A stretch of 48,466 nt of DNA from Sporichthyaceae bacterium (GTDB lineage Bacteria; Actinomycetota; Actinomycetes; Sporichthyales; Sporichthyaceae): the NCBI GenBank assembly GCA_036493475.1, contig DASXPS010000187.1:1-48466 (forward strand), given 5' to 3'. This document shows, one piece after another, positions 11,004 to 33,574 of the stretch. The position numbers and the translations under genes are program-made. The first letter of the stretch is position 1; every line of letters begins with the position of its first letter. The notes beneath the pieces are model-generated. The model was not told where the DNA came from. It saw nothing but the letters and a program-made list of their open reading frames with translations, and did not search any database.

Positions 11004-11094
11004 CACCGTACGCGCTCTCCGGCCCGCTGGGAAGCCTTGTGCTGTGCGTTGAAATGTGATTCGCTCGTCGCAAACAAGTCCAGGGAGGAGGCAC

Positions 11095-12522
11095 GTGTCC
11101 GAGATCGAGGTGGTCAGCCCGATCGACTCCAGCGTGGTCGCCATCCTCGTCGAGACCGCGCCCGCCGACGTGCAGCGTGTGGTCCACGCGGCGCGGGCCG
11201 CCAGACCGGCGTGGGCGCGTGTCCCGGTCGAGGAGCGGGCCGCGGTATTGGACCGCTGGGCCGACGCGGTGCTCGCCGCCGGCGATGAGATCGCCGCCGC
11301 GGTCACCCGGGAGATGGGCATGCCGATGGCGTTGGCCCGGGCGACCCAGGTGGACCTGGTCGCCACCGTGCTGCGCAGCACCGCCGCCATCGCGCGCGGG
11401 TTCGCCTGGACGCAGAAGCACGACGGGTTCGAGGTGCACCACGTGCCCGCCGGGGTGGTCGCCGCGATCACGCCGTGGAACATGCCCGTCTACCAGTGCG
11501 CCACCAAGCTGGCTCCGGCGCTGGTGGCCGGCTGCGCGGTGGTGCTCAAGCCCAGCGAACTCGCGCCCACCGCTGCGACGCGCTTCGTGGAGTTGGGTCT
11601 GCAGGCCGGTGTCCCCGCCGGGGTGCTCGGCCTGGTGCATGGTTACGGCCCGACCGCCGGGGAAACCCTGGTCACCGCGGACGGCGTGGACGTGGTCTCG
11701 TTCACCGGCTCCGGCGCGGCCGGTGCGCGGGTCGGATCCCTTGCCGCAGCGGCCATTCGTCGGGTCGCGCTGGAACTCGGTGGCAAGTCGGCGAGCATCG
11801 TGCTCGACGACGCCGACCTCGACGACGTGCTGCCGCGCGCGGTGCGCGCGGCGTTCCTCAACACCGGCCAGGCCTGCAACGCCCCGACCCGGCTGCTCTA
11901 CCCGCGCGCCGAACAGGCCCGGGTGGAGGCCGCCGCGGTGGCCACCCTCGCCGACCTTCGCATCGGCGACCCGACGCTGGACGGCACCGACCTGGGGCCG
12001 CTGGTCAGCGTCCGCCAACATGAGCGGGTCGCCGGCTTCATCGGTCGCGCGCTGGCCGACGGCGCCCGCGTCGTCGCCGGCGCCGCGCCAACCCCGCCGG
12101 GCGTCCGCTCCACCGTGAGCTATAGCTCACGCTCCGGCGGACACCCGGCGGATGGGTTTGTGCTGCCGCCGCCGTACATCGCCCCGGTGGTGCTCGGCGA
12201 CGTCGCCCGGCACGCGGAGATCGCCCGCGAGGAGGTCTTCGGCCCGGTGCTGGTGCTGCTGCCCTACGACGACGACGCGGACGCGATCGCCGTGGCCAAC
12301 GACACCGACTACGGTCTGTCCGCCGAGGTATGGGGGTCGGATCCGGCGCGTATTGCCGCGGTGGCCAGCGAACTGAGGGTGGGTCAGGTCAAGGTGAACG
12401 GCGTGCGCACCCGCAGCCGGGCCGGGGCACCGTTCGGCGGCTTCGGCCGCTCCGGGGTGGGCCGCGAGCTCGGCGAGTGGGGCCTGCTGGAGTTCTGTGA
12501 GGTCCGGGCGGTGCTGGCATGA
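11095..12522 (+). CDS. Aldehyde dehydrogenase (NAD(P)-dependent, with an in-frame palindromic insert)
   Basis: This 475-residue aldehyde dehydrogenase shows ITPWNMPVYQ, KPSELAP, FTGSGAAG, the general-base ELGGKS, catalytic Cys in NTGQACNAP, EEVFGPVL and a C-terminal FGGFGRSGVGRE. GTG at 11095 follows a strong GGAGGAGG. It would oxidise aldehydes made by the neighbouring oxygenases or alcohol dehydrogenases. Oddly, between GARVVAGAAP and GFVLPPPYIAP it carries about 15 extra residues encoded by a palindrome (12100-12145), in a loop that is usually short. It is the first gene of an ALDH-SDR-P450-DUF7064 operon and overlaps the SDR start by four bases. Confidence 0.92.
   Translation: MSEIEVVSPIDSSVVAILVETAPADVQRVVHAARAARPAWARVPVEERAAVLDRWADAVLAAGDEIAAAVTREMGMPMALARATQVDLVATVLRSTAAIARGFAWTQKHDGFEVHHVPAGVVAAITPWNMPVYQCATKLAPALVAGCAVVLKPSELAPTAATRFVELGLQAGVPAGVLGLVHGYGPTAGETLVTADGVDVVSFTGSGAAGARVGSLAAAAIRRVALELGGKSASIVLDDADLDDVLPRAVRAAFLNTGQACNAPTRLLYPRAEQARVEAAAVATLADLRIGDPTLDGTDLGPLVSVRQHERVAGFIGRALADGARVVAGAAPTPPGVRSTVSYSSRSGGHPADGFVLPPPYIAPVVLGDVARHAEIAREEVFGPVLVLLPYDDDADAIAVANDTDYGLSAEVWGSDPARIAAVASELRVGQVKVNGVRTRSRAGAPFGGFGRSGVGRELGEWGLLEFCEVRAVLA
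12100..12145. repeat. Composite palindromic element inside the aldehyde dehydrogenase gene (copy 1)
   Basis: A perfect 16-bp palindrome GTGAGCTATAGCTCAC (12115-12130) is flanked symmetrically by GGCGTCCGC (12100-12108) and GCGGACACC (12137-12145), which pair at 8 of 9 positions. It keeps the reading frame. A second element of the same architecture is at 32471-32515. Confidence 0.6.
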
Positions 12523-15565: not shown

Positions 15566-15629
15566 CCCCGAAAGCGCAGAAGCGCGCGTAAATCCGCGTT
15601 GTTTTGCGCTCCGTTCTGCGCTTTCGGGG
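15566..15629. repeat. Intergenic hairpin repeat, copy 1
   Basis: Perfect 16-bp terminal arms (CCCCGAAAGCGCAGAA at 15566-15581, its complement at 15614-15629) enclose a partly paired centre containing GCGCGCGTAAA and TTTTGCGC. It lies 30 bases after the DUF7064-like gene and ahead of a TetR gene. It shares arms and the GTAAA/TTTT centre with elements at 31291-31352 and 46211-46270. It could act as a terminator, but the conserved sequence, not just structure, argues for a repeat family. Confidence 0.7.
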
Positions 15630-18076: not shown

Positions 18077-19548
18077 GCGCCCGCCGGGTAATTCCGCCCG
18101 CTACCACGCTGATCATCGGCGCCGGGTTCGCCGGGCTGGGCGCGGCGATCCGGCTGCGCCGGGCCGGGCACGACGACTTCGTGATCCTGGAACGTCGCAC
18201 CGAGATCGGCGGGACCTGGCGGGACAACACCTATCCGGGTGCGGCCTGCGACATCCCCTCGGTGCTGTACTCCTACTCGTTCGCGCCGAACCCGCAGTGG
18301 TCGCAGTTCTACTCCGACGGCGAGGAAATCCTGCGCTACCTGCACCACCTGGTCGACGAATTCGACCTGGCACCGTACCTGCGGCTGGGCCGCAACGTCA
18401 CCTCGCTGGAGTGGGACGAGCGGCGCGGCACCTGGACCGCGCACTGCGAGAACGGTGAGCAGTTCCGCGGGCGCACCGTGGTGTTCGCACCCGGCCCGTT
18501 GTCCAACGCCGGCCTGCCCGCGATGCGCGGCATCGAGGACTATCGGGGCATCAAGATCCATAGCGCCAAGTGGGACCACTCGATCGACCTGACCGGCAAG
18601 AAGGTTGCGGTGATCGGCACCGGTTCCAGCGCGGTGCAGATCATCCCGGAGTTGGTGAAGGACGCGGGCAGCGTCAAGGTTTTTCAACGCACGCCGGGGT
18701 GGGTGCTGCCGCGGCTGCAGTTCGGCACGCCGGGCCCGGCCAAGGCGCTGTTCGGCAAGGTGCCGTTCGCGCAGAGCGTGATGCGTCGCGCGGTGTTCGC
18801 CGCGCACGAGTCCATCGCACTCGGCGTGGTGTGGTCCTCGCCGGCCACCAAGGTGGTGGAGCGCGCGGCGCACCTGCAACGCCGCGTCCAGGTCTCGGAT
18901 CCGTGGCTGCGTAGGCAACTGACTCCACATCATAAGATCGGCTGCAAACGCATGCTGATCTCCAACGACTACTACCGAGCGTTGCAGGCCGACAACTGCA
19001 AGCTGATCACCTGGCCGATCGCAACGCTGAGCCCGGTCGGCATCCGCACCGCGGACGGCGTCGAGCACCACGTGGACGCCATCGTGTTCGCCACCGGGTT
19101 CGACGTGGCCAAGACCGGCACCCCGATCCCGATCACCGGCCGCGGCGGCCGCACGCTGGATGAGGACTGGGCCGGTGGCGCGTATGCGTACAAGAGCATG
19201 ACGGTGTCCGGCTACCCGAACCTGTTCTTCACCTTCGGCCCGAACTCCGGGCCGGGGCACAATTCCGCGCTGGTCTACATGGAGTCCCAGATCGACTACG
19301 CGGTGGCCGCTATCTCCCACCTTGTTGCCCAGCAACTGCACTCGGTGGATGTGCGTGCCGATCTGGAGCAGCAGTTCAACACCGACATCCAGAAGCGGCT
19401 GGCCCGCACCAACTGGAACTCCGGGTGCCACAGCTGGTACCTCACCGACGACGGCTTCAACGCCACCATGTACCCGGGCTTCGCCACCCAGTACGCCCGG
19501 CAGCTGGCCCGATTCCGCTCGGCGGACTACACGTTGCGCCGGGCGTAG
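18073..19548 (+). CDS. FAD/NADPH-dependent Baeyer-Villiger-type monooxygenase
   Basis: This 491-residue flavoprotein has GAGFAGLGAAIRL (FAD), EIGGTWRDNTYPGAACDIPS, the second Rossmann GTGSSAVQI (NADPH), and YRGIKIHSAKWDH matching the BVMO signature FxGxxxHxxxW except Tyr for the first Phe; ATGFD is present. It would convert a ketone to an ester or lactone, or oxidise a heteroatom. The ATG overlaps the preceding diiron gene stop (ATGA). It is the last gene of the TetR-SDR-diiron-BVMO operon, with a strong terminator beyond it. Confidence 0.9.
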   Translation: MSARRVIPPATTLIIGAGFAGLGAAIRLRRAGHDDFVILERRTEIGGTWRDNTYPGAACDIPSVLYSYSFAPNPQWSQFYSDGEEILRYLHHLVDEFDLAPYLRLGRNVTSLEWDERRGTWTAHCENGEQFRGRTVVFAPGPLSNAGLPAMRGIEDYRGIKIHSAKWDHSIDLTGKKVAVIGTGSSAVQIIPELVKDAGSVKVFQRTPGWVLPRLQFGTPGPAKALFGKVPFAQSVMRRAVFAAHESIALGVVWSSPATKVVERAAHLQRRVQVSDPWLRRQLTPHHKIGCKRMLISNDYYRALQADNCKLITWPIATLSPVGIRTADGVEHHVDAIVFATGFDVAKTGTPIPITGRGGRTLDEDWAGGAYAYKSMTVSGYPNLFFTFGPNSGPGHNSALVYMESQIDYAVAAISHLVAQQLHSVDVRADLEQQFNTDIQKRLARTNWNSGCHSWYLTDDGFNATMYPGFATQYARQLARFRSADYTLRRA

Positions 19549-19572
19549 CGCCGGTGGGGCGCTGCCACACAC

Positions 19573-19616
19573 ACGTCCGGCCGATCCGTGGCGATGCCCA
19601 CGGGTCGGCCGGACGT
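19573..19616. terminator. Bidirectional hairpin terminator
   Basis: ACGTCCGGCCGA and TCGGCCGGACGT pair over a 44-base hairpin whose inner part (CCGTGG/CCACGG) also pairs. It lies between the convergent flavin monooxygenase (ends 19548) and HtrA-like protease (ends 19631). There is no U-tract, as usual for actinomycete terminators. Confidence 0.75.
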
Positions 19617-19630
19617 CGGGGGTGGCTTGG

Positions 19631-30496: not shown

Positions 30497-31267
30497 GTGC
30501 AGGAGATCGTTGACGCCCTGGCCGGCGAGCACGCCGCGCTGCGGGACCGACTGGCCGGGCTGAGCCCGGCGGACTGGGCGCGGCCCTCGCAGTGCGCCGG
30601 GTGGAGCATCGCCGACGTCGTGCTGCACATGGCGCAGACCGACGAGTTGGCCGGGGGCAGCGCCAGTGGGGATCTGGCCGGCGGCGCGGCGCAGGCCGGC
30701 TGGGACCTGACCACGCTGGGCAACGACGGCCCCGTCGACTCCGACGTCATCGCCGACGCTGCGGTGGTCACCGGCCGCGGCATGGACCCCGCGGAGTTGC
30801 TGGCCCGGTACACGAACGCCGCGGACCGGATGTGCACGGCGCTGCGTGCCTGCGACCCGCGCGCGCCGCTGACCTGGGTGGTGGGCCGCCTGCCCGCCCG
30901 CACCCTGGCCACGACGCGGCTGGCCGAGTGCTGGATCCATGCCGGCGACATCGGTTACGCGCTCGGCATCGAGCCCGAACCCAGCGAGCGGTTGTGGCAC
31001 ATCGCCCGGCTGGCCTGGCGCACGCTGCCCTACGCGTTCACCAAAGCCGGCCGTGCGCTGCACGGCCCGGTTGCGCTGCTGCTCACCGCGCCGGACGGCA
31101 GCACCTGGCACTTCGACCACGACGAGCCCGCCGACACCGTGGTGCAGGGCGACGCGCACGCCTTCTGTCTGCTGGCCGCGCGCCGGGTCGGCCCCGCGGA
31201 ATCCGGCCTCAAGGCCGTCGGCCCGGACGCCGACGCCGTGCTGGAACTCGTCCGCACCTTCGCCTGA
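30497..31267 (+). CDS. DinB/MDMPI-type metal-binding protein (TIGR03084-like)
   Basis: This 256-residue protein has an N-terminal DinB-like helical bundle: QEIVDALAGEHAALRDRLAGL, WARPSQCAGWSIADVVLHMAQTDELA (His ligand), AECWIHAGDIGYALGIE (His ligand). A C-terminal SCP2-like/MDMPI_C region follows (LHGPVALLLTAPDGSTWHF). The family includes mycothiol-dependent maleylpyruvate isomerase relatives. GTG 30497 follows AAGGAG embedded in the stop region of the rhomboid-like gene, so translation is coupled. A hairpin repeat follows 23 bases after its stop. Confidence 0.87.
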   Translation: MQEIVDALAGEHAALRDRLAGLSPADWARPSQCAGWSIADVVLHMAQTDELAGGSASGDLAGGAAQAGWDLTTLGNDGPVDSDVIADAAVVTGRGMDPAELLARYTNAADRMCTALRACDPRAPLTWVVGRLPARTLATTRLAECWIHAGDIGYALGIEPEPSERLWHIARLAWRTLPYAFTKAGRALHGPVALLLTAPDGSTWHFDHDEPADTVVQGDAHAFCLLAARRVGPAESGLKAVGPDADAVLELVRTFA

Positions 31268-31290
31268 TCCCACCCGCCCCGGCTTCCCAC

Positions 31291-31352
31291 CCCGAAAGCG
31301 CAGAAGCGCACGTAAAACCACCGCATTTTACGTACGCTTCTGCGCTTTCGGG
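31291..31352. repeat. Intergenic hairpin repeat, copy 2 (most perfect)
   Basis: CCCGAAAGCGCAGAAGCG (31291-31308) pairs perfectly with 31335-31352, and the stem continues through ACGTAAAA/TTTTACGT with one mismatch, about 27 paired bases around an 8-base loop. It lies between a metal-binding protein gene and the NYN gene, both on plus. Confidence 0.75.
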
Positions 31353-31475
31353 CGTCAAACCGTGGGGCGCCGCAACCGAACGGATGAGGGCGGACGGGAC
31401 ATTCGTCCGTTCCCGGACCGTGCCCCCGGCGGGACAGTGAGCCCAGCGACGCGTGCACCGGGGAGGGTGGAGGCG

Positions 31476-32444
31476 ATGCGGGCTTACTGTTCGCTGTTCA
31501 TCGACGCCGGGTACCTGATGGCCGCGGTATCCACCCGGGTCACCGGGACCTCGCTGCGCAGCGCCACCGACATGGACGTGCGCGGTCTGCTCGACGACGT
31601 GGCGGCCCAGGTGCAGGCCGACTGTGGGCTGCCGTTGTTGCGCATCCACTGGTACGACGCGGGCACCAAGGCCGGCACACCCGACCTGCGGCAGCGGGAG
31701 ATCGCCGAACTGCCCCGGGTGAAGGTGCGGCTGGGCCGGCTGGGCCACAACGGCGAGCAGAAGGGCGTGGACCTCAAGCTCGCCCTCGACCTCATCGCCC
31801 AATCCCGCAACCGGGTGGCCGAGGTCATCTATCTGATCTCCGGCGACGACGACCTGTCCGAGGCCGTGGAGGCCGCGCAGGAACTCGGCGTGCAGGTGAT
31901 CGGGCTGGTGGTGCCCGACGAGGCAGGCGAGGCGATCGCGGTGTCCCGGCATCTGCGGCAGACCCTCGACCGCACAGTGCACATCGACGGCGCGACGATC
32001 GATGAACGGGTGAAGCGGGCGATGGTCCTGCTCACGGCCTTGCCGACGCCGACCGCCGCCATCCCCAGCCAGCCGGCGCCGCGGCCCACGCCGTTGCTGG
32101 TGACGCCCACGCGACCGGCCGGTGCCGCCGTGCTCCGGCTACCGGTGCCGCCCCGTTCGGTGCCCGCCTATGTCACCAGCACCGGCTCGGGGGGTAGCTG
32201 GCCCGACGAGGGCCCGCTGGAGGATGCCGTCCGGTTCGTCGTGGACAAGGTGGTGCAGAACCTGTGGCGCACCGCCGGACCCGGCCTGCGCGAGGAACTG
32301 GGCCGTGGCCGGCCGAACGTCCCGGCCGATATCGACCGCACGCTGCTCAACGACCTGAGCAACAAGCTCGGCAACTACGACCTGTCGCAGCCGGCCCGCT
32401 TCGCGCTGCGCGACGCCTTCTGGGAGAGCGTCGACCGCCAGTAA
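31476..32444 (+). CDS. NYN-domain (PIN-like) ribonuclease-type protein
   Basis: This 322-residue protein has an N-terminal NYN/PIN-like domain with its acidic set: FIDAGYL (D10), KGVDLKLALDL and ISGDDDLSEAVE, which bind metal in this nuclease superfamily. A Pro-rich linker (PTPTAAIPSQPAPRPTP) follows, then a C-terminal domain (AVRFVVDKVVQNLWRTAG, PADIDRTLLNDLSNKLG) that may contact RNA or a partner. GGAGGGTGGAGGCG precedes ATG 31476. It is probably an RNA-processing or decay enzyme; the substrate is unknown. The 208-base upstream gap contains hairpin repeat copy 2. Confidence 0.82.
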   Translation: MRAYCSLFIDAGYLMAAVSTRVTGTSLRSATDMDVRGLLDDVAAQVQADCGLPLLRIHWYDAGTKAGTPDLRQREIAELPRVKVRLGRLGHNGEQKGVDLKLALDLIAQSRNRVAEVIYLISGDDDLSEAVEAAQELGVQVIGLVVPDEAGEAIAVSRHLRQTLDRTVHIDGATIDERVKRAMVLLTALPTPTAAIPSQPAPRPTPLLVTPTRPAGAAVLRLPVPPRSVPAYVTSTGSGGSWPDEGPLEDAVRFVVDKVVQNLWRTAGPGLREELGRGRPNVPADIDRTLLNDLSNKLGNYDLSQPARFALRDAFWESVDRQ

Positions 32445-32470: not shown

Positions 32471-32515
32471 GGCGTCGAAGAAGGGTGAGCCATAGCTCAC
32501 GCCTGCTCGGACGCC
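32471..32515. repeat. Composite palindromic element over the nitronate monooxygenase stop (copy 2)
   Basis: GTGAGCCATAGCTCAC (32485-32500), one base away from the aldehyde dehydrogenase copy, is flanked by GGCGTC (32471-32476) and GACGCC (32510-32515). The gene's stop codon lies in the core. The spacing of outer arms and core is nearly the same as at 12100-12145. Confidence 0.55.
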
Positions 32516-33561
32516 CACCGGGTGGCGACGGCGCGGAGGGCTTCCTGCGTCTCCTTGTGCAGCCGGGCGAGCACGTCGGCGGCCGATTCGGCGACCGCCA
32601 ACGGGTAGGCCTGGCCGGCCCACAGGTGCAGGTTCTCCCGGTTGCCGGTCTGCTTGGCGTTGGCCCGCAGCGGTGCGGTCACGTGATGGATCTGCGGGTA
32701 GGCGCTGATCGCGTCGGCGTTGTGGCGTGCCATGAACTCGTTGCGAATGCCGCGGGCTCGCCGGCCGCTGAACGCACGGGTGACGGCGGTGAGCGGGCCG
32801 GGGGAGGAGATCGCCTCCCGGTGCACCGGCGCGGTGCCCGCCTCCGGGCAGAGCATGAGCGCGGTGCCGATGGCCGCCGCCGATGCGCCGGCGGCGAGCA
32901 CCGCGGCAATCGCGCGCCCGGTGGCGATGCCGCCCGCGGCCACCATGGGTAGGTCGACCCGAGCGGCGACCAACTGAAGCAGCGTCAGAAGGCCGATATC
33001 GGCGGGGTGCGCATCGTCGAAGCTGCCCCGGTGCCCACCGGCCTCGAAGCCCTGCACAGCCAGGCCATCCGCGCCCACCGCGGCCGCCGCTTCGGCGTCC
33101 TCCGGACAGATCACTGTCACCCACGCCACGCCGCCGGCCGCGTGCACCCGTTCCACGTCCAGCGCCGAGGGGCAGCCGAAGGTGAACGAGACGATCGGCA
33201 CCCGCCGCGCGCAGACCATCTCGAGCTTCTCGAGGGACCAGTCCTCGGCCCAGCGCGGCGCGCCCAACTCGACGCCGGCCGCGGTCGCCGCCGGCTGGAT
33301 GCGGTCGGTATACGCCGCCACCCGGTCCTCGTCCGCCCCGTGTCCGGGCGGGGCGAACAGGTTCACGCCGAACGGGGCGTCGCCGATCTCACCGGTCAGC
33401 GTGTCCAGGTTGGCGGACAGCGCCTCGACGCTCTTGTAGCCGGCGGCCACGAACCCGAGCCCGCCGGCTCGAGTGACCGCGGCGCTCAGCGCCGGGGTGG
33501 ACGGGCCGCCGGCCAGCGGCGCCTGCACGATCGGGACGCGAAGGGAATCGAGACTGAACAC
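32497..33561 (-). CDS. Nitronate monooxygenase (2-nitropropane dioxygenase-type flavoprotein)
   Basis: This 354-residue FMN TIM-barrel enzyme has an N-terminal PIVQAPLAGGPSTPALSAAVTRAGGLGF and the phosphate-binding MVAAGGIATGRAIAAVLAAGASAAAIGTALMLCPEAG typical of the family, with EAGGHRGSF as the catalytic His region. It oxidises alkyl nitronates or a related carbon acid. GTG 33561 is preferred because the minus-strand -10 TACAGT (33569-33574) ends exactly seven bases before it, which suggests a leaderless transcript; GTG 33570 is the alternative. It is divergent from the F420 PPOX gene. Confidence 0.9.
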   Translation of the reverse strand: MFSLDSLRVPIVQAPLAGGPSTPALSAAVTRAGGLGFVAAGYKSVEALSANLDTLTGEIGDAPFGVNLFAPPGHGADEDRVAAYTDRIQPAATAAGVELGAPRWAEDWSLEKLEMVCARRVPIVSFTFGCPSALDVERVHAAGGVAWVTVICPEDAEAAAAVGADGLAVQGFEAGGHRGSFDDAHPADIGLLTLLQLVAARVDLPMVAAGGIATGRAIAAVLAAGASAAAIGTALMLCPEAGTAPVHREAISSPGPLTAVTRAFSGRRARGIRNEFMARHNADAISAYPQIHHVTAPLRANAKQTGNRENLHLWAGQAYPLAVAESAADVLARLHKETQEALRAVATRWASEQA

Positions 33562-33574
33562 GTTCAGCACTGTA
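33562..33574 (-). promoter_or_regulatory. -10 element for leaderless nitronate monooxygenase mRNA
   Basis: TACAGT on the minus strand (33569-33574) is followed by seven bases and GTG. There is no Shine-Dalgarno-like sequence between, as for leaderless actinobacterial transcripts. Confidence 0.45.

Follow-up and report, generated by a model that had tools for sequence, protein, structure and literature searches.

The window, by which we mean the whole 48,466-nucleotide stretch of Sporichthyaceae DNA that was analyzed, contains two copies of a short palindromic element, one in frame within an aldehyde dehydrogenase (ALDH) gene and the other between convergent genes, and a third palindrome of the same superfamily. 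The window is part of a draft genome (G000); G001–G004 denote other genomes of its family. The features are as follows (the palindromes are given without strand):

11056..12522, + strand: aldehyde dehydrogenase gene, PF00171 (E 3e-133), split in frame by the element
12088..12159, + strand: 72-bp (24-codon) insertion relative to the orthologous ALDHs of G001–G004, from protein and DNA alignment, palindrome included
12100..12145: copy 1, a 46-bp palindromic element of subfamily A, in frame within the ALDH gene
12115..12130: core of copy 1, a perfect 16-bp palindrome, read from the sequence
19572..19617: third superfamily member, CACGTCCGGCCGATCCGTGGCGATGCCCACGGGTCGGCCGGACGTCG, shortly 3' of a stop codon (TAG, 19546–19548)
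30939..32444, + strand: NYN-domain gene, stop codon some 26 nt to the left of copy 2
32471..32515: copy 2, A-type, between convergent genes and across the stop codon of the right-hand one
32497..33570, – strand: nitronate monooxygenase gene, PF03060, stop codon (32497–32499) inside the core of copy 2

The true start of the NYN-domain gene probably lies further in.

As the initial annotation proposed, palindromes are present at both 12100–12145 and 32471–32515, and they have in common a 16-bp core flanked by outer arms at nearly equal spacing. Copy 1 has the layout GGCGTCCG-N7-GTGAGCTATAGCTCAC-N7-CGGACACC and encodes the peptide GVRSTVSYSSRSGGHP; its core is a perfect palindrome, and inverted symmetry reaches out to positions 12094–12151. 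Copy 2 is 45 bp long, with a one-base deletion in its left arm (GGCGTC-GAAG) and a single mismatch in its core (32485–32500). The A core contains GTGAGC and TATAGC, which hold TGA and TAG in two of the three frames, and the core thus has a single open frame. Because it has stops in the other frames, copy 2 is able to carry the stop codon of its neighbor; indeed, the nitronate monooxygenase gene ends within the core, as had been claimed. The palindrome at 19572–19617, a more distant member and an addition to the two copies recognized initially, has exact CGTCCG/CGGACG arms at the spacing of the family and a core different from those of copies 1 and 2. Within the window, the core pattern gave four strand-matches against 0.34 expected, a number reached in 1 of 100 shuffles. 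Another palindrome family, of about 62 bp and of the form CCCGAAAGCGCAGAAGCGC...GCGCTTCTGCGCTTTCGGG, is represented in the window at 31291–31352 and 15566–15629, apparently in intergenic positions, and its arms, CCGAAAGCGCA, are also found in G002 (three pairs at locus L275, and L196).

The ALDH gene has gained 24 codons (12088–12159) relative to its orthologues in G001, G002, G003, and G004, and the insert is missing from all other ALDHs that we aligned. At the corresponding position the loop of solved ALDHs is shorter. An earlier estimate of about 15 added residues holds for the palindrome itself, which supplies about that number, but the insertion as a whole is larger (72 bp). No target-site duplication was evident at this site in an alignment with the relatives, which are strongly diverged.

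A search of the genome for the core and its arms revealed many further copies. With up to two mismatches allowed, the core had 19 forward and 17 reverse matches in G000 (36 against 1 for the reversed control, whose matches were 0 forward and 1 reverse), and arms at fixed spacing, TGCGTCCG-N30-CGGACGCA, were found at 56 sites, as compared with 1 for the reversed control pattern. At least 55 copies are present in the window's genome. The same arm pattern yielded 66, 34, 30, and 15 sites in the four other genomes of the family, against 7, 5, 4, and 8 for the control. In nearly every copy with readable flanks, GGCGTCCG and CGGACGCC formed the outer arms and were equally spaced. A search with half-elements uncovered a second, asymmetric subfamily, B (TTGCGTCCGAAGAAGTGTGGGTGCCCGGACACTGTTCTTCGGACGTAACG), and covariance models together with the fixed-spacing pattern placed all of the subfamilies in one 46-bp frame. 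The model searches scored the best candidates per genome, and copy numbers based on them are lower bounds; copy numbers are also underestimates because the hairpins seem to break short-read assemblies.

Beyond the family, we scanned 394 genomes of the class. Two genomes, from one genus of another family, stood out (28 and 27 sites, against 5 for the control in each); they carry a variant, TGCGTCCTGCA...TGCAGGACGCA, that retains the 46-bp frame, and several of the copies examined are again directly 3' of stop codons. Three convincing copies are present in a genome of a third family (G157), and most of the other genomes were at background level. Palindromes with GTTGTGTCCGAAG...CTTCGGACGCAAG arms and a slightly different length were seen at two loci (L122 and L135) of G036, from another family, and are possibly distant relatives of the 46-bp family. 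Viral contigs contained no exact matches to the pattern, and no similar plasmid DNA was found; on these grounds we rejected carriage by phage or plasmid. Contig ends or a scaffold N-gap fall in the middle of a palindrome at the starts of G000:C20 (L024), G000:C169 (L185), G000:C91 (L059), and G004:C9 (L017), at the end of G000:C122 (L040), and at about position 14800 of L272 in G003.

All of the subfamilies have the same 46-bp length and the same arms, with CGTCCG almost invariant across the family, and differ in their cores: A (GTGAGCTATAGCTCAC), B, T1 (GAAGAAGTGGCTGC-TATT-), T2 (GGCCAACTGTGGCC-TATA-), and F, several of which occur side by side in each genome. The consensus runs about three bases further outward (C[CG]T...A[CG]G) and ends in TTGCGTCCG/CGGACGCAA. 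The hairpins are stable (median RNA MFE –30.8 kcal/mol), yet the halves showed no covariation beyond shuffling within subfamilies, the paired cells being equal to the shuffled ones. Each half is thus conserved independently, with no clear sign of selection on pairing as such, so that covariation offers no proof of an RNA structure. Sequence-specific recognition fits this pattern better than selection on base pairing. Rfam covariance models had no matches in the window or in the loci, and a T-run followed the element at only 1 of 286 ends.

An approximate gene caller based on codon-position GC was used to place 143 sites in five genomes relative to genes. Sixty sites were between convergent genes, 56 between tandem genes, and 3 between divergent genes, and 22 were called inside genes, many of the latter lying 5' of true starts or at C-termini. 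Approximately 119 of the 143 sites are intergenic, with a strong preference for 3' ends, and the stop codon precedes the element by a median of 8.5 nt. The element fits a REP in the general sense, namely a short dispersed palindrome at 3' ends, between genes that are convergent or in tandem.

In-frame insertion is the exception, most copies being intergenic. In addition to the ALDH gene, the RimO gene of G000 harbors a B copy in the linker that joins its UPF0004 and radical SAM domains; RimO of G001, a genome of the same genus, lacks 14 residues exactly at the B copy, and the inserted stretch is also missing from RimO of G002 and G003. A further in-frame copy lies between domains of a PKS in G002, a molybdopterin-oxidoreductase/flavodoxin fusion gene (L185, G000:C169) has two in-frame B copies, one after each domain, and PurF, LipB, PaaA, and a sensor kinase have copies as C-terminal extensions. 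Nine in-frame copies of the B/T1 type, in eight genes, are read in one common acidic frame, [VL]ASEE...SSDA, which is used in all nine cases even though B is open in all three frames. A copy in a CoA-transferase III gene (L179) is likewise in frame; as Pfam gave no match for the N-terminal half of that protein, we left it out of the proven cases.

Orthologous sites were identified by blastn matches on both flanks, as low-threshold tblastx was too noisy, and occupied ones were found in G000, G002, G003, and G004. G002 and G003 share 16 alignable occupied sites, whose flanks are mostly 90–97% identical. The core type is the same at 12 of these and is swapped at the other 4, at which the inner sequences are identical at only 10–17 of 30 positions and position, arms, and flanks are conserved. 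In all four swaps the core is T1 in G002 and T2 in G003. The clearest is L212/L109, at which the left flank matches exactly over about 60 bases, the arm included. A B-type copy in G000 corresponds, at four additional sites, to a copy with its own core type in G002, G003, or G004, and at one site the counterpart in G002 of the 46-bp element of G003 and G004 is a CCGAAAGCGCA-armed palindrome of the other family. Tandem copies 65–73 bp apart are present at L006 (G000:C129:3247 and 3312), L053, and L250, and such pairs are plausible intermediates of replacement by insertion and deletion. At L006 the flanking bases appear to be duplicated as well.

The search for an enzyme or a parent element that could account for mobility gave negative results. 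No PF01797 (IS200/RAYT) protein was found in seven carrier genomes (G000–G004, G101, and G226), although control genomes gave matches, and mobilization by RAYT/IS200 was rejected accordingly. Isolated half-elements were absent from G000 except at contig ends and in degenerate copies, and no clear one was found in G002 or G003. Because half-elements almost never stand alone, no parent insertion sequence is seen, and none ending in half-elements was found in G000, G002, or G003. Inverted pairs of DNA-uptake sequences were likewise rejected, single copies being essentially absent, and integron attC sites were rejected, as their ends have the reversed orientation (GTT...AAC).

The palindromes, then, have a fixed 46-bp frame, near-invariant CGTCCG arms, and a strong preference for positions a few bases 3' of stop codons; some are lineage-specific in-frame insertions, and different cores occupy one fixed site among relatives. 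We consider it probable that they are copies of a non-autonomous dispersed element of the REP class that is specific to a lineage of Actinomycetes (the Sporichthyaceae and a few other families). A putative enzyme acting in trans would spread the copies by recognizing the arms and the inner half-site of each subfamily. Fresh insertions would be retained at 3' ends, where they are nearly harmless or of some benefit and where, judging from position, a hairpin stable on either strand may end or protect the transcripts of both convergent genes. Intragenic copies would survive only in an open frame at linkers, surface loops, or C-termini. An old copy could be overwritten by one of another subfamily, most simply through adjacent insertion and a subsequent deletion between the arms that both have in common, or alternatively by conversion through the arms. 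A more far-reaching version would treat the 46-bp frame as a docking site, with constant arms that allow cores to swap in place. The mobile palindromes would then form a homing-like core-exchange system, with subfamilies competing for shared 3'-end sites and a putative arm-recognizing enzyme carrying out the exchange; we regard this as conceivable but doubtful.

Independent conservation of the two halves, the almost invariant outer CGTCCG, the fixed 46-bp spacing, and the conservation of positions between genera would also be expected of functional protein-binding sites, such as a dyad operator or a chromosome-organizing site whose outer half-site stays constant and whose inner one varies with the dimeric protein. 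We think this unlikely, as the copies follow stop codons and are almost never found at divergent genes, where promoters are; moreover, some lie inside the coding sequences of ALDH, RimO, and a PKS, and each genome has several unrelated core types that differ at one site between relatives. Quite unlikely, in our judgment, is that the palindromes are immobile hairpin terminators of convergent genes that are kept by selection and are merely similar in sequence. Their 3'-end position, their bidirectional hairpin, their retention at orthologous convergent gene pairs, and the site that in G002 is taken by a palindrome of another family instead of the element are all in keeping with termination. Terminators, however, need not be of one 46-bp length or have an 8-bp arm and a core in common at dozens of sites, and here there is no U-tract and no pairing covariation, and insertions occur inside genes (ALDH and RimO).

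A MITE of an ordinary DDE-type insertion sequence, with the arms as its terminal repeats, would likewise have symmetric ends and many copies, insert in genes, and be absent from relatives. Half-elements, however, occur almost exclusively as palindrome pairs, no such insertion sequence was found in G000, G002, or G003, no target-site duplication was seen against diverged relatives, and nothing but the core lies between the arms, which makes this origin very improbable. Finally, 16-bp palindromes are not rare in so GC-rich a window, which contains others, and the two copies might have been unrelated palindromes brought together by chance; the genome-wide counts (36 to 1 for the core and 56 to 1 for the arms) refute coincidence and leave it a negligible probability.

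The REP-class element that we favor resembles known REPs and REPINs, which are GTAG-tagged and associated with RAYTs (PMC3733652, PMC3116915), in being a short palindrome of high copy number with several families per genome and some copies in ORFs, and in lying directly 3' of stop codons where the neighboring genes are convergent or tandem. GTAG and CGTC REPs, too, are found at convergent and unidirectional sites less than 20 bp from stop codons, with some copies intragenic (PMC3733652). In contrast to REPs and REPINs, however, the present element is 46 bp long, combines constant arms with differing cores, and is hosted by Actinomycetota; neither consensus end has an unpaired GTAG tag, and the seven carrier genomes have no PF01797 transposase. 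The CGTC-tagged REPs (Di Nocera et al. 2013), which include RPE-4 and RPE-6 of Rickettsia conorii, have an unpaired CGTC at one end, a stem of 8–9 bp, a loop of 4–5 nt, and a CCA-like tail, and have been reported from five phyla, Actinobacteria not among them (PMC3733652). Our element shares with them a CGTC motif at its ends, 3'-end and intragenic sites, and the lack of a known dedicated transposase, but here CGTC lies within both paired arms of one long, interrupted 46-bp hairpin with a stem of about 20 bp. It is therefore not a GTAG/RAYT REP, nor does it conform to the structural definition of the CGTC REPs. It is like MITEs in being non-autonomous, dispersed, and bounded by inverted repeats, but no parent insertion sequence was found in G000, G002, or G003 and no target-site duplication was evident at the ALDH site, and it differs from an intrinsic terminator in that its stable hairpin is almost never followed by a T-run.

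The initial annotation had likened the palindrome to the in-frame elements of Rickettsia, and part of that comparison is borne out: this is a dispersed palindrome of an actinobacterium that is found in frame in ALDH, in RimO, in a PKS linker, and in C-terminal extensions. As with RPEs, it is inserted in unrelated housekeeping genes and is absent from their orthologues (ALDH and RimO), and one peptide frame is used repeatedly. Neither of the outcomes that the initial annotation named as refuting it, a loop shared by all homologous ALDHs or a lack of further copies, was observed. The remainder of the comparison is not supported, as most copies follow the 3'-end pattern of REPs, and the element has neither the size of the Rickettsia elements nor the unpaired CGTC tag and short stem. 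RPEs are about 150 bp long and lie in ORFs in nearly half of cases (reviewed in PMC10969869), and their descriptions set them apart from a 46-bp, mostly intergenic element. It acts in the manner of RPEs and REPs and would be at most a candidate member of those families. What we have described is a dispersed palindrome of the REP class that is occasionally inserted in frame, as RPEs are. In the literature we found the core sequence in no paper, and nothing on palindromes of Sporichthya or on actinobacterial RAYT-REPs; the family of 46-base repeats is previously undescribed.

REP-like palindromes have been well studied in Proteobacteria, and the survey of tagged REPs (PMC3733652) lists no Actinobacteria. 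With constant arms and length and interchangeable cores at conserved sites, the present superfamily allows the spread of REP-type elements that lack a RAYT to be tested, and it makes replacement of such elements in place testable as well. Its in-frame cases, meanwhile, represent a second lineage, outside Rickettsia, in which a palindrome has repeatedly given the same peptide to unrelated proteins.
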